The translations under genes and the position numbers were made by a program. From Clostridia bacterium (GTDB taxonomy: Bacteria > Bacillota > Clostridia > Christensenellales > Aristaeellaceae): DNA of 36,077 nucleotides. How positions within the stretch are numbered: the first letter of the stretch is position 1; the number at the start of each line of letters is the position of its first letter. Where the stretch lies: contig JAUMVG010000034.1 of assembly GCA_030530315.1 (NCBI GenBank), positions 1-36,077 of the forward strand, read 5' to 3'. The notes beneath the pieces were generated by a model. The model saw only the letters and a list, made by a program, of their open reading frames with translations. It made no database searches and was not told the origin of the DNA. Below are positions 25,342 to 28,193 of the stretch, piece by piece.

Positions 25342-25767
25342 ATGAAACCAAAGCAGATCGTTCCGGGGCTGATCCTGGGCGGAATCGACGACTTGGATGC
25401 CATGCTGACGATGCAGCCCGACGTGCTGGCCCCGCTGGACAGGCTCCCCGGGCGCATCTGGCGGACGGGCTTTCGCGGGGAGATCCTCTATTTCCCAATC
25501 CCGGACCGGGAGGTCCTGCCGGATGACGTGCTGGAGGCGCTGGTGTCGGCGATTCTCGCACGTATTCGCGGGGGAAAGCGCGTCGCCCTGTTCTGCCATG
25601 GCGGCCATGGTCGGACGGGATACGTGGCCGCCTGCGCGCTGTTTCTATTGGGCGTAACGGAGCCGATGCCCTTCCTCTGGCGCAATTACAGCGCATCCGC
25701 GGTGGAAACGGATGTGCAGATGCTGGCAGTGGAGCGGTTTTGCAGGCGACATGTTCCAAGAGATTGA
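25342..25767 (+). CDS. Dual-specificity/tyrosine-type cysteine phosphatase
   Basis: The protein has 141 residues, the length of a minimal dual-specificity phosphatase. The signature loop CHGGHGRTGYVA (about 92-103) gives C-x5-R-(S/T), with Cys92 as nucleophile and Arg98 binding phosphate. PIPDREVLPDD (about 53-63) is a plausible general-acid loop. The substrate may be a phosphoprotein, phosphoinositide or RNA 5' phosphate; the sequence does not decide. It is paralogous to the inactive-looking protein at 21889. GGGAGGAG lies just before ATG 25342. Its stop codon (25765-25767) lies inside the -35 box of the promoter for the Y RNAs, so the gene directly abuts the Ro60 locus. Confidence 0.85.
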   Translation: MKPKQIVPGLILGGIDDLDAMLTMQPDVLAPLDRLPGRIWRTGFRGEILYFPIPDREVLPDDVLEALVSAILARIRGGKRVALFCHGGHGRTGYVAACALFLLGVTEPMPFLWRNYSASAVETDVQMLAVERFCRRHVPRD

Positions 25768-25792
25768 CAATGCGCAATGGATATGTTACTAT
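25764..25792 (+). promoter_or_regulatory. Strong sigma-A promoter for the Y RNA / rsr locus
   Basis: TTGACA (25764-25769) and TACTAT (25787-25792) are separated by exactly 17 bases. A TG dinucleotide at 25784-25785 gives an extended -10. The expected transcript start is about 25799. The stop codon of the upstream phosphatase gene is embedded in the -35 box. Confidence 0.85.
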
Positions 25793-25798
25793 AAGGTT

Positions 25799-25986
25799 GC
25801 GCTGGGAGACCGGCGTGGGACGGCATTGCAGGCTGCGGTTACTTCGCTTTCCTGGTGGAGGGGCGGGTTCGAATCCCGCACGCCCGAAGAGGGCGTTGGC
25901 CTAGCGGTTCAGGGCGACACCCATAGAATACCGCAGTCGTTTTTATCCGTCCCCTTCTCATCGGGTATCGGGCGTTCGCGCCTTTT
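25799..25986 (+). ncRNA. yrlA: YrlA-like Y RNA, copy 1 (tRNA-mimicking)
   Basis: This is a structured RNA just upstream of the Ro60-family gene. Outer helix P1 is GGGACGG (25817-25823) with CCGTCCC (25947-25953). A conserved two-sided loop follows (CATTGCAGG 25824-25832; TCGTTTTTAT 25937-25946), then P2, CTGCGGT (25833-25839) with ACCGCAG (25930-25936). A variable-arm-like hairpin (25847-25862) leads to a perfect T arm (GCGGG-TTCGAAT-CCCGC, 25863-25879). An acceptor-like stem ACGCCC/GGGCGT (25880-25885/25891-25896) is capped by GAAGA. U8 is at 25897. The D arm has stems 25899-25902/25912-25915 and an AGCGGTTCA loop. The tRNA is therefore circularly permuted: its two ends are joined and the anticodon stem is replaced by the Y RNA stem, as described for YrlA. 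The RNA would bind the TROVE protein and gate or guide it. Confidence 0.85.
25971..25986 (+). terminator. Short UUCG hairpin with T-run between the two Y RNAs
   Basis: GGCG-TTCG-CGCC (25971-25982) is followed by TTTT. The stem is only four pairs, so termination is probably partial. That would yield copy 1 alone plus read-through into copy 2 and rsr. It could instead be a processing signal. Confidence 0.5.
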
Positions 25987-25990
25987 ACCG

Positions 25991-26132
25991 GCGAAGCGGC
26001 ATTGCAGGTGGGGGTTACTTCGTCTTTTAAACGAGAGGCTGCGGGTTCGAATCCCGTCCCGGCTGCTTTGAGGGGCCGGGTAGCTCAATTGGAAGAGTGC
26101 TAAAATACTCCTGTCGATTTTATCCGCTTCGT
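25991..26132 (+). ncRNA. yrlA: YrlA-like Y RNA, copy 2 (tRNA-mimicking)
   Basis: This has the same plan as copy 1 with different bases. P1 is CGAAGCGG (25992-25999) with CCGCTTCG (26124-26131), a fully compensated helix. The loop strands CATTGCAGG (26000-26008) and TCGATTTTAT (26114-26123) are conserved. P2 is TGGGGGT (26009-26015) with ACTCCTG (26107-26113), using three G-U pairs. A hairpin at 26019-26035 has the seven-base loop CTTTTAA. The T arm is GCGGG-TTCGAAT-CCCGT (26041-26057). The acceptor-like stem CCCGGCT/GGCCGGG (26058-26064/26074-26080) is joined by a 9-base loop. U8 A9 are at 26081-26082. The D arm is GCTC-AATTGGAA-GAGT (26083-26098), with the G-G and A positions of real tRNAs. 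No separate promoter fits between the copies, so it is probably co-transcribed with copy 1 and then processed. Confidence 0.85.
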
Positions 26133-26176
26133 TCTTGAACCTTGGAGCTTTGCCTTGCGCGTTCTCTCGACCATGC

Positions 26177-26222
26177 CGCGGGCGGGGCTCTTTCTGGTTT
26201 TTGGCAGCCATTTTTGCCCGCG
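26177..26222 (+). promoter_or_regulatory. Leader hairpin before rsr
   Basis: CGCGGGC (26177-26183) is the exact reverse complement of GCCCGCG (26216-26222), enclosing a 32-base T-rich loop. It ends 14 bases before the rsr SD sequence (GGGAGG, 26237-26242). It could protect the 3' end of the Y RNA transcript or affect rsr expression. There is no T-run after it, so it is not a plain terminator. Confidence 0.4.
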
Positions 26223-26250
26223 AAAGCGGCGCTGACGGGAGGTGCTTATC

Positions 26251-27693
26251 ATGAGCAAATTCAACAACAGGCCGACCAATCTGACCACCAATCGCGAGGG
26301 CATGCCAGCCTTTGCCATGAAGGACAGGGCGAAGCTGGTGACGCAGGTGCTGACCTCGTTTTTCAACGAGCAGAAGTTCTACGGCGACAACAGCGCCGAG
26401 ATGGAACTGACGATCCGAAAGGTGATCCAGCAGGACGCGGATTTCGTGTCTCGCCTGGCTGTGTTTGCCCGGCGGGAGTTTAATATGCGCTCCGTTTCCC
26501 ATGTGCTGACCGCGTACTTGGCCCATGAGCCGGAGGGCAAGCCCTTCGTTCGCAAGACCGTCCAGGGCATCGTCCGGCGGGGCGACGATGTGACGGAGCT
26601 GATGGCGTTTTACCTGTCCACCTTTGGAAAGCCCATTCCCAACGCCCTGCGCAAGGGCATCTGCGATGCCTTCGTCACGTTCGACGAATACACCCTGGCC
26701 AAGTACAAGGGAGCGGGCAAGGCTGTCAGGATGAAGGACATCGTGCTGCTGTGCCACCCCAAGCCGGCGGACGAGGCGCAGGCTGCGCTGTGGAAGCGGC
26801 TGTTGGAGGACCGGCTGGAAACGCCCTTGACCTGGGAAACCGAGCTTTCGGCAAAGGGCAACAACAAACAGACCTGGAAGGAGCTGATCGACAGCGGCAA
26901 GGTGGGCTACATGGCCCTGCTGCGCAACCTGCGCAACATCATACAGGTCGCGCCGACGAACATCAACAAGGTATGGAAAACCATCGGGGATGAGGATGCG
27001 GTCAGGAAATCCCGCCAGCTGCCCTTCCGATTTCTTTCTGCCTACAAGGAGATCAGCCCCGTCGCCGGAAGCAAGGCGCTGGACGCGCTGGAGGACGCGG
27101 TGCGCTTCGCCGCGGGAAACCTGCCCCGACTGCCCGGCAGGACGGTGATTGCTGTGGATACATCCGGCTCCATGAGCTCCACCATGAGCCGGAAATCCAG
27201 CGTGCGCTGCTGTGAGGTAGGCATGATGCTGGGCCTGATCGCGACTCGCATCTGCGAGGACAGCCTGTTCTACACCTTTGATGATAAAATCGAAAAGTTT
27301 CCGCTGACCCGCCACACAGCGATTCTCGAGACCTGTATGCGCTACGCCAGCGCGGGGGGAGGCACCCGCATGAGCCTGCCCTTTGAGGTGATGATCCGTG
27401 ACGGCATCCGGGCCGACAGGATCATCATCATCAGCGACAACGAGTGCAACAGGTATCGTTGGGGTGACAACAAGGCGTTTGTCCAGAACTATGCGGACGA
27501 GTACCGGCGGCAGTCCGGCATCGACCTATGGGTGCACGCCATCGACCTGATGGGCTATGGCACACAGCAGTTTGCCGGGTCGAGAACCAACATCATCGCG
27601 GGCTGGAGCGAGAAGGTGCTCAACTTCATATTGCTGGCGGAACAGGGCGCGGGCACCCTGGAGGAGACGATTGCCCGCTATGAATGGCAATGA
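26251..27693 (+). CDS. rsr: Ro60/Rsr-family TROVE and vWA protein
   Basis: This is a bacterial Ro60 orthologue of 480 residues, close to the usual length of the family. The N-terminal HEAT-repeat ring (TROVE, about 1-290) binds Y RNA on its outer surface and misfolded RNA ends in its hole. The C-terminal vWA domain has a complete MIDAS: DTSGS (303-307), Thr372 in GGGTRMS and Asp396 in IIIISDNE. Family knowledge: bacterial Rsr with Y RNA works with exoribonucleases such as PNPase in RNA degradation and 23S rRNA maturation under stress. ATG 26251 follows GGGAGG by 8 bases; GTG 26242 lies within the SD sequence and is rejected. Two Y RNAs lie just upstream on the same transcript and a cysteine phosphatase overlaps its stop. 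No rtcB or rtcA RNA-repair gene is in the window. Confidence 0.95.
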   Translation: MSKFNNRPTNLTTNREGMPAFAMKDRAKLVTQVLTSFFNEQKFYGDNSAEMELTIRKVIQQDADFVSRLAVFARREFNMRSVSHVLTAYLAHEPEGKPFVRKTVQGIVRRGDDVTELMAFYLSTFGKPIPNALRKGICDAFVTFDEYTLAKYKGAGKAVRMKDIVLLCHPKPADEAQAALWKRLLEDRLETPLTWETELSAKGNNKQTWKELIDSGKVGYMALLRNLRNIIQVAPTNINKVWKTIGDEDAVRKSRQLPFRFLSAYKEISPVAGSKALDALEDAVRFAAGNLPRLPGRTVIAVDTSGSMSSTMSRKSSVRCCEVGMMLGLIATRICEDSLFYTFDDKIEKFPLTRHTAILETCMRYASAGGGTRMSLPFEVMIRDGIRADRIIIISDNECNRYRWGDNKAFVQNYADEYRRQSGIDLWVHAIDLMGYGTQQFAGSRTNIIAGWSEKVLNFILLAEQGAGTLEETIARYEWQ

Positions 27694-28193
27694 TGATCGA
27701 GATATGCGGTCAGGAGACGGCAGTCAGCCTCGTCGCCAACGCGCGGGAGAGGTTTTCCGTGATCTCCATCACCGCGACGGAGGACGGGGATGTCGCCTTT
27801 CCGGCCAATGAAAACGCAGTCGCCATACTGCGCCTGCGCTTCAATGACCTGACGGAGGCCTATGACGAAGACGGCTTTCCCTACGGACGTCTGCTTCCCG
27901 AGCAAAGGGATTTCGAAGGCTTGAAGACCTTTGTCGATGTACTTGTTGGTGAAAGGCTGATCATCCACTGTTGGGAAGGCGCGTCTCGCTCGGCGGCGGT
28001 GGCGACGGCGATATTTGAAGCACGCGGCGGTGTGGATCATTTGAAGACCCATGGCCGATACGCGCCGAATCCCCGCGTCTACGCGCTGGCGTGCCGGGAG
28101 CTGGGCATTCCTCTGCGTGGCTTGAATTACATAGCCGTGCCGGACGGAGATGGCACGTGGAGGATGGTGAAGAGCGAACGGACCTTTACATGA
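27690..28193 (+). CDS. Cysteine phosphatase coupled to rsr
   Basis: This is a tyrosine/dual-specificity-type phosphatase of 167 residues. The signature HCWEGASRSAAVATAI (about 90-105) has C-x5-R-S with Cys and Arg intact. A candidate acid loop lies about 30 residues before it. ATG 27690 overlaps the rsr stop as ATGA and there is no SD sequence, so translation is probably re-initiated from rsr and the two proteins made together. ATGs at 27684 and 27693 are also possible. It is only distantly similar to the phosphatase at 25342. Its 3' end overlaps the tail of the minus-strand LRR gene by 8 bases. The substrate is unknown; RNA ends or phosphoproteins are both conceivable. Confidence 0.85.
   Translation: MMIEICGQETAVSLVANARERFSVISITATEDGDVAFPANENAVAILRLRFNDLTEAYDEDGFPYGRLLPEQRDFEGLKTFVDVLVGERLIIHCWEGASRSAAVATAIFEARGGVDHLKTHGRYAPNPRVYALACRELGIPLRGLNYIAVPDGDGTWRMVKSERTFT

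Follow-up and report, generated by a model that had tools for sequence, protein, structure and literature searches.

Evaluating a 36,077-nt stretch of DNA from a Clostridia bacterium (the window, here always meaning this whole stretch), we found two tandem YrlA-type Y RNAs ahead of a Ro60 gene, and we consider it probable that the locus makes two Y RNAs riding on Ro60 whose heads, one canonical and one a full cloverleaf, present a tRNA disguise to a partner. As we read the sequence, copy 1 is of canonical YrlA architecture, its anticodon stem continuous with the Y stem, whereas in copy 2 the circularly permuted cloverleaf is complete: its anticodon arm stands free, and the Y stem is inserted at position 26, between the D arm and the anticodon arm. 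This anticodon arm, which is frequent in phages, hints at dealings with enzymes that recognise anticodons.

The contig carrying the window (C118) is one of the 144 of a 3.58-Mb genome, and the features of the locus are collected in Table 1. The array is preceded by a sigma-70-type promoter, and 12 of the 14 loci examined reach a promoter score of at least 10 of 12 before their first Y RNA (window included; absent in L041 and L042), against 6 of 2,000 random window stretches. By eye, a hairpin at the position of P0 is present also in L034 and L040, with a different sequence. The hairpin between the two Y RNAs may be a processing or termination signal, and the terminator-like hairpin behind the second, which is not among the calls of a terminator scan, may attenuate the Ro60 gene. 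For that gene we prefer by eye the ATG at 26251 as start over the listed GTG at 26242. Its protein combines a TROVE and a vWA domain and matches 9l5y/9kop as well as Ro60 and Rsr structures; the NCBIfam Rsr equivalog scores 44.1 of 900 bits on it, far under cut-off.

Table 1. Features of the Y RNA and Ro60 locus, in window coordinates, with the sequence or the evidence for each.
Feature	Position	Strand	Sequence or evidence
DSP/PTP-type phosphatase-like gene, upstream	25342-25767	+	PTP-SAK 2.7e-8; relatives in 2 of 26 loci searched (L039, L025)
Promoter of Y RNA array, sigma-70-type	25764-25792	+	TTGACA-17-TACTAT; 10/12 consensus matches
P0, 7-bp hairpin with GAGA loop, at expected transcript 5' end	25799-25816	+	Fold -12.2 kcal/mol, z -3.18
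Y RNA 1 (copy 1)	25817-25953	+	YrlA 24.2 bits; model R1 88.7 bits (outside R1 training set); pair counts in six-RNA alignment
Copy 1, P1	25817-25823/25947-25953	+	GGGACGG/CCGTCCC
Copy 1, 5' loop strand	25824-25832	+	CATTGCAGG
Copy 1, P2	25831-25839/25930-25938	+	
Copy 1, UACUUCG	25840-25846	+	
Copy 1, anticodon-stem equivalent (GGUG/CACC)	25854-25858/25917-25921	+	GGUGG/ACACC, 4/5 paired
Copy 1, T arm	25863-25879	+	TTCGAAT loop
Copy 1, acceptor	25880-25885/25891-25896	+	
Copy 1, D arm	25899-25915	+	
Copy 1, 3' loop strand	25937-25946	+	TCGTTTTTAT
Hairpin stretch between both Y RNAs; end overlaps start of Y RNA 2	25956-25995	+	Fold -14.3 kcal/mol, z -1.52, weak
Y RNA 2 (copy 2)	25992-26131	+	YrlA 32.9 bits, tRNA 28.4 bits; R1 138.1 bits (R1 training sequence); covariation
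Copy 2, P1	25992-25999/26124-26131	+	CGAAGCGG/CCGCTTCG
Copy 2, 5' loop strand	26000-26008	+	CATTGCAGG
Copy 2, P2	26007-26015/26107-26115	+	
Copy 2, anticodon arm	26019-26035	+	UUCGU-CUUUUAA-ACGAG; pair 31-39 CG, UA or AU in 10/10 copy-2-type RNAs; rotated RNA is tRNA-Lys(UUU) by ARAGORN
Copy 2, anticodon	26026-26028	+	UUU
Copy 2, variable loop	26036-26040	+	AGGCU
Copy 2, T arm	26041-26057	+	TTCGAAT loop
Copy 2, acceptor	26058-26064/26074-26080	+	
Copy 2, U8-A9	26081-26082	+	
Copy 2, D arm	26083-26098	+	
Copy 2, 3' loop strand	26114-26123	+	TCGATTTTAT
Terminator-like hairpin, Y RNA 2 to Ro60 gene	26144-26191	+	Fold of 26132-26205 -29 kcal/mol, z -2.97
Ro60/TROVE protein gene	26251-27693	+	PF05731 E 1.9e-35; vWA_Ro60 3.5e-10; PDB TROVE chain 9l5y E 2.2e-38
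Small protein with HCxxGxxRS phosphatase-like loop, directly after Ro60	27684-28193	+	DSPc E 0.0026, weak, under cut-off

Relatives of the small protein behind Ro60 follow Ro60 in 3 of 26 loci searched (L039, L030, L032), and none was found in L025, L026 or L028, each with 4 kb of downstream sequence; as a guess, the flanking HCxxGxxR-like proteins could be RNA 5'-phosphatases. PADLOC, given nine window proteins, named nothing around Ro60 and no anticodon nuclease, and its weak PDC-S48 match falls inside a leucine-rich repeat (LRR) protein. As a separate observation, positions 1-24476 of the window hold a two-component system, two Ser/Thr kinases, an AAA ATPase, an Hsp70-like protein and BspA-type LRR proteins, which would make up a signalling or surface-protein island adjoining the Ro60 unit.

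A preliminary description of this DNA had proposed two tandem YrlA-type Y RNAs built as circularly permuted tRNA mimics upstream of Ro60, and the elements that it quoted (both P1 helices, the loop strands, T arms with a TTCGAAT loop, a closed acceptor-like stem, U8 and the GG of the D arm) are all present, in the T-acceptor-D order that it gave. Its further statement that both copies share one fold holds for the common frame and fails in the anticodon region, since only copy 2 has a free arm. The suggestion that two copies with different acceptor stems may be specialised gates or tethers seems to us a reasonable guess. Folded singly against 200 shuffles, the RNAs were only mildly better than chance, with z -1.78 (10 of 200 as good) and z -2.39 (2 of 200). 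A copy 1 hairpin drawn from its single-sequence fold (CUUUCC-UGGU-GGAGGG) gave way to the pairing of the anticodon stem, which covaries.

YrlA (RF02553) is the best Rfam family on both copies, with E-values of 2.3e-5 for copy 2 and 0.0077 for copy 1, so that the covariance-model search proposed in the preliminary description agrees with it at scores below the gathering score of 69 bits. That score was passed by nothing in the window, in nine loci or in 100 relatives, a search of the window at Rfam gathering scores returned nothing, and the TROVE-linked Y RNA of Deinococcus gobiensis likewise falls below it. Because the 69-bit score, which we judge a weak criterion, is a curated cut-off and not a biological trait, we keep the YrlA filing, and the evidence supports both copies as divergent members of the YrlA, or bacterial Y RNA, family. 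Both have a basal stem formed by the two ends of the RNA, with conserved internal-loop strands, and both are encoded beside a Ro60/TROVE gene, as are their relatives. Replacement of the anticodon stem by the Y stem, as in the Rfam consensus, fits copy 1, whereas copy 2, though built on the same frame, has its free arm and so a variant architecture. Nor is copy 2 an ordinary tRNA gene with a cloverleaf in genomic order: it is readable as a tRNA only after rotation, and its Rfam tRNA score lies just under the tRNA cut-off.

According to the portions of the literature available to us, YrlA is a mimic of the D, T and acceptor arms that is modified by DusA and TruB, and the Y RNA links Rsr to PNPase (PMC8394870); structure 6CU1 is circularly permuted relative to tRNA (PMC11472068), Rsr attaches to Y RNAs at their lower stem (PMC4726728), and the three arms with their circular permutation have been described (PMC8394870, PMC7790460, PMC9569102, PMC11472068, PMC13355120, PMC4726728, PMC7824862). 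The parts of the Y RNA and Ro60 literature available to us, key papers excluded, hold no mention of a free anticodon arm in YrlA. Wang is said to have reported in 2018 a kinked stem in the anticodon position. The free anticodon arm would thus be a new variant of YrlA, with uncertain priority.

Using a hand-drawn structure of 37 pairs for ten RNAs of the copy 2 type (type 2), we obtained 95.0% standard pairs against a shuffled mean of 74.7 (0 of 500 shuffles as high), double changes in 22 pairs (shuffled mean 15.6) and a covariation score of 0.577 against 0.205 in shuffles and 0.070-0.135 in slid controls, the structures being favoured over the slid controls by having been drawn from the same sequences. 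Double changes occur in all six helices, P1 and the anticodon stem included, and pair 31-39 is CG in four, UA in four and AU in two of the ten, in keeping with the covarying helices claimed beforehand. For the six RNAs of the copy 1 type (type 1), which are more alike, support is modest, with 97.1% standard pairs against a shuffled mean of 94.9 and a covariation score of 0.196 against 0.149 shuffled; their further pair types (14) were not above shuffles (420 of 500). The anticodon-stem equivalent of type 1 carries UA to CG and AU to GC changes, with one mismatch in the window copy.

Cut at position 26, re-ordered as a tRNA and given to ARAGORN, all ten type 2 RNAs were called tRNAs (0 of 500 shuffles each; one anticodon undefined), which bears out the permuted-mimic reading; in genomic order the same program finds zero tRNAs in the window. 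Window copy 2 becomes a tRNA-Lys(UUU) and its relative in L039 carries UAC, so that anticodons differ among relatives. Compared with 40 distinct tRNA genes of its own genome, taken from 30 of 47 tRNA places, copy 2 is nearest to a tRNA-Thr, with 52 of 77 aligned positions identical, and is therefore not a recent copy of a Lys tRNA.

Evaluating bacterial relatives, we found matches to the Ro60 protein in 7 of 28 genus genomes and 11 of 300 family genomes at E 1e-40 (own genome included in both), and relatives 66-78% identical in four uncultured Clostridia or Clostridiales assemblies, one from goat abomasum. The 12 close relatives that we read (L025-L028, L030, L032-L034, L039-L042) carry one to five Y RNAs upstream of TROVE, whose reading frame is split in two in L042. 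With small variations they share a frame of P1, GCAUUGCAG, P2 of about 9 bp, GUUACUUCG, a variable module, P2', CGAUUUUAU and P1'. The module may be a permuted cloverleaf, its anticodon stem open in type 1 and its anticodon arm intact in type 2; it may also consist of just a T arm (L026, L027, L028) or hold no tRNA part (second copy in L032 and L033). As observations in their own right, a conserved tRNA-less module sits in the Y frame at L026:3635-3819, L027:2513-2695 and L028:3632-3763, and by eye a possibly similar one with a T-arm-like hairpin is seen in L108, L110, L111, L115 and L116. No Y RNA was found beside the distant TROVE genes in L037 and L038 (about 30% identical) or two fragments (L035, L036), and R1 matched nothing near the own genome's distant TROVE genes (C73, C58) or near that of G023.

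Tandem tRNA genes proved to be a source of false matches. At E 0.001 the Rfam YrlA model matched 62 of the 100 relatives, none over cut-off; of 19 matching loci inspected besides the window, 15 were tandem true tRNA genes and four (L005, L006, L008, L016) were tRNA-less. Among 14 control genomes, 7 likewise gave a weak match, including E. coli and B. subtilis, so weak matches were left uncounted. Because tandem true tRNAs reach 64.8 bits with R1, each counted match was read individually; one counted Y RNA, L121, also receives a doubtful genomic-order call from ARAGORN. Separately, by eye, the reverse strand of L016 (G071:C65) holds a candidate Y RNA with anticodon loop CUGGAUA and a long, tRNA-Ser-like variable arm, near a Band_7 gene and scoring only 24.8 bits with R1.

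Running R1 over 308 family genomes, we confirmed Y RNAs by reading in at least 11, own included; as at most 10 candidates per genome were scored and matches of 53 bits or less were uncounted, absences are soft. Ten genomes hold both a Y RNA (308 searched) and a window-type TROVE (300 searched), the mismatches being G147 with the RNA only and G023 with the protein only, a fragment. Extra type 1 Y RNAs lie in L083 (G011:C100) and L084 (G016:C1); they share the promoter and 5' hairpin seen before the window array, and neither has a TROVE within 1.5 kb. Besides the own genome, R1 matched two genomes at order level (396 searched; TROVE in G513, none in the stretch of G484), seven at class level (391 searched; TROVE in 7 of 7 fetched stretches) and ten at phylum level (398 searched), the last divided into four tandem true tRNAs and six Y RNAs with TROVE, the TROVE match being weak in one case (E 5e-14); in the family of G842, 7 of 14 genomes matched. 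In G1040 (L113/L114), of the same class as the window genome, Y RNAs lie on either side of TROVE and an RtcB gene (PF01139 E 3.9e-58) follows the second, an arrangement resembling an RNA-repair operon. Among 27 listed bacterial anticodon-arm rows, a set that includes close relatives (L122 and L123 resemble each other) and in which the pattern missed L042, the loop has 7 nt in 20; 15 of these 20 have U35-U36 (Lys/Asn-type) and 2 of the 20 are without U33.

The anticodon arm is frequent in viruses. A pattern blind to the loop letters, with loop length and parts of the flanks fixed, gave at least 123 matches in at least 120 viral stretches, where chance would give 2-5 stretches in an assumed collection of 50-150 Gb. 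The 123 matches listed have U33 in 120, a purine at 37 in 119, A38 in 113 and a standard pair 31-39 in 122. Rotated, 103 of 120 listed RNAs were called tRNAs and 17 were not (shuffles 0 of 2,400); of the 7 acceptor positions, 6 or 7 are paired in 93 of the 120 and at most 5 in the other 27. Collapsing the listed stretches at 70% ungapped identity, the sole handling of phage relatedness, left 112 clusters, with pair 31-39 as CG in 47, AU in 33, UA in 20, GC in 11 and other in 1, and with positions 36-37 as UA in 65 and GG in 30 (0 of 10,000 permutations as high). Forty of the listed stretches were first examined after the 36-37 rule had been stated and thus form a fresh sample; they gave UA in 21 and GG in 12, a sum of 33 of 40, again with 0 of 10,000 permutations as high. 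At position 36 the listed clusters have U 65, G 34, A 7 and C 6, against U 165, G 109, A 120 and C 116 in 510 ARAGORN tRNAs of the same stretches (chi-square p 3e-10), and this skew to U and G relative to true tRNAs suggests selection on the loop.

These viral RNAs are also linked to TROVE, which was found at E 0.001 in 39 of 50 chosen viral records, mostly longer contigs (38 over the Pfam cut-off), and was not seen in the other 11, which may be fragments; for comparison, tblastn, a different method, found it in 87 of 50,697 phage records. A TROVE peptide pattern run over viral contigs gave no relative. In Caulobacter phage CcrPW the 1.4 kb preceding TROVE contain five R1 matches, of which three score 35-37 bits; three matches were found in Xanthomonas phage Olaya and one, at 68.8 bits, on Deinococcus gobiensis plasmid P2, type 1 by reading, with stem CACGU/ACGUG.

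A counterpart in normal order occurs in crAss-like phages. Shortly after TROVE, PhiCrAssBcn1 (L285:6674-6817; also L286 and L287) carries a tRNA (Rfam 46.6 bits) that holds an inserted Y frame closed by a GUAA loop; 24 records match at least 80% of the query, with no annotated feature under the match among the records listed. By eye, its P2 is paired at 9 of 9 positions and compatible changes appear in cr106_1 and cr112_1, where TROVE is near too; as a whole the RNA does not fold significantly better than its shuffles (z -1.23, 29 of 200 as good). This RNA is apparently an un-permuted isomer of the Y RNA.

In the explanation that we favour, the two Y RNAs would ride on the adjacent Ro60 ring by their basal stem, as in relatives, its near-invariant internal-loop strands being the presumed Ro60 site. 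Disguised as a tRNA, the head would face a partner that recognises tRNAs, such as PNPase, a tRNA-modifying enzyme or a tRNA nuclease, and the ring would meanwhile deal with damaged RNA; with two heads, one Ro60 could dock both partners that read the anticodon loop and partners that ignore it. That the loops keep to tRNA-like rules, above all in the phage relatives, suggests that something reads this loop; since the anticodons are unconserved, no single reader is implied, and since the UUCG of the anticodon stem is kept also in arm-less copies, part of the stem conservation has another cause.

How such a loop would be used may be explained in more than one way. The anticodon-arm Y RNA may be a bait for, or competitive inhibitor of, anticodon nucleases, with a loop that is not chargeable and a product handled by Ro60 and repair or decay enzymes, which we regard as possible but on the unlikely side. 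The viral loops listed follow tRNA rules with covarying positions 36-37, and an RtcB ligase gene follows TROVE and Y RNA in G1040; in the portions of the sources available to us, AriB of PARIS cuts tRNA-Lys (PMC11455837), the class of the window's UUU loop, and Hughes 2020 proposed competitive inhibition for YrlA (PMC7790460). Yet YrlA itself is not a nuclease substrate according to the same portion of the latter source (PMC7790460), the RtcB match of the window genome lies on another contig, the anticodons are diverse, and PADLOC names no anticodon nuclease among the nine window proteins.

Alternatively, position-37 enzymes might use the anticodon loop for docking or modification, whereby the loop would be stabilised or the enzymes titrated, a tentative reading to which we would not give even chances. 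A U36-A37 context leads to t6A37 and a G36-G37 context to m1G37, and it is these contexts that prevail among the 112 listed viral clusters, with A36 and C36 depleted relative to tRNAs of the same stretches, but several bacterial relatives lack both.

That these are permuted genes for functional tRNAs, their transcripts processed, circularised or re-joined and then charged, is very improbable in spite of the tRNA calls for rotated RNAs (10 of 10 type 2, 103 of 120 listed viral), for P1, P2 and the loop strands are strongly conserved and kept even in copies without a tRNA part, the RNAs are linked to TROVE, and close relatives carry different anticodons (UUU in the window against UAC in L039). 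Tandem tRNA remnants, decayed or accidental, which the scores of tandem true tRNA genes with YrlA and R1 (up to 64.8 bits with R1) might suggest, have next to no probability left and are in our view already refuted by covariation, with compensatory changes in six of six helices within a shared non-tRNA frame, a window free of tRNAs by ARAGORN, an identity of 52 of 77 at best for copy 2 among the own tRNAs compared, and a conserved frame, promoter and TROVE linkage.

Returning to the disguised Y RNAs, their frequency in phages and their linkage to TROVE point to a tRNA-centred conflict between phage and host. As a wider conjecture, which we put forward as a rather doubtful one, Ro60 particles of bacteria and especially phages could be anticodon-loop traps, arrays of permuted uncharged mimics whose loops are chosen for UA or GG at 36-37 and which bait, inhibit or sense anticodon nucleases or position-37 enzymes in a widespread counter-defence or RNA-damage system, with tRNA and Y RNA as interconverting topological isomers (compare the crAss-like un-permuted form). 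A large natural family with a real anticodon arm turns the purpose of the Y RNA head into a direct test, namely which enzyme reads the loop.

Permuted tRNA genes occur in algae and archaea, and they resemble copy 2 in having a circularly permuted complete cloverleaf, but the window's cloverleaf heads a Ro60-type stem and bears no sign of tRNA maturation. The RNA repair operon rsr-yrlBA-rtcBA likewise unites Ro60 and Y RNAs, and RtcB is adjacent in the relative G1040; unlike in that operon, no rtcBA or RtcR was recognised at the window locus, where phosphatase-like genes flank the unit instead. RYPER, the Ro60-Y RNA-PNPase machine of Deinococcus radiodurans, also combines a Ro60 ring with a Y RNA that has a tethering head; at the window locus PNPase is one putative partner. 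YrlA itself (RF02553; Salmonella, Deinococcus, Mycobacterium; PDB 6CU1) differs in that copy 2 has a separate anticodon arm missing from the Rfam consensus structure and in that the window's loop strands depart from the Rfam consensus, with scores below gathering, and yet it is alike in adjoining Ro60 (Rsr), in the basal stem with its internal loop, in the permuted T-acceptor-D mimic and in occurring in multiple copies, as in the Salmonella operon rsr-yrlBA-rtcBA.
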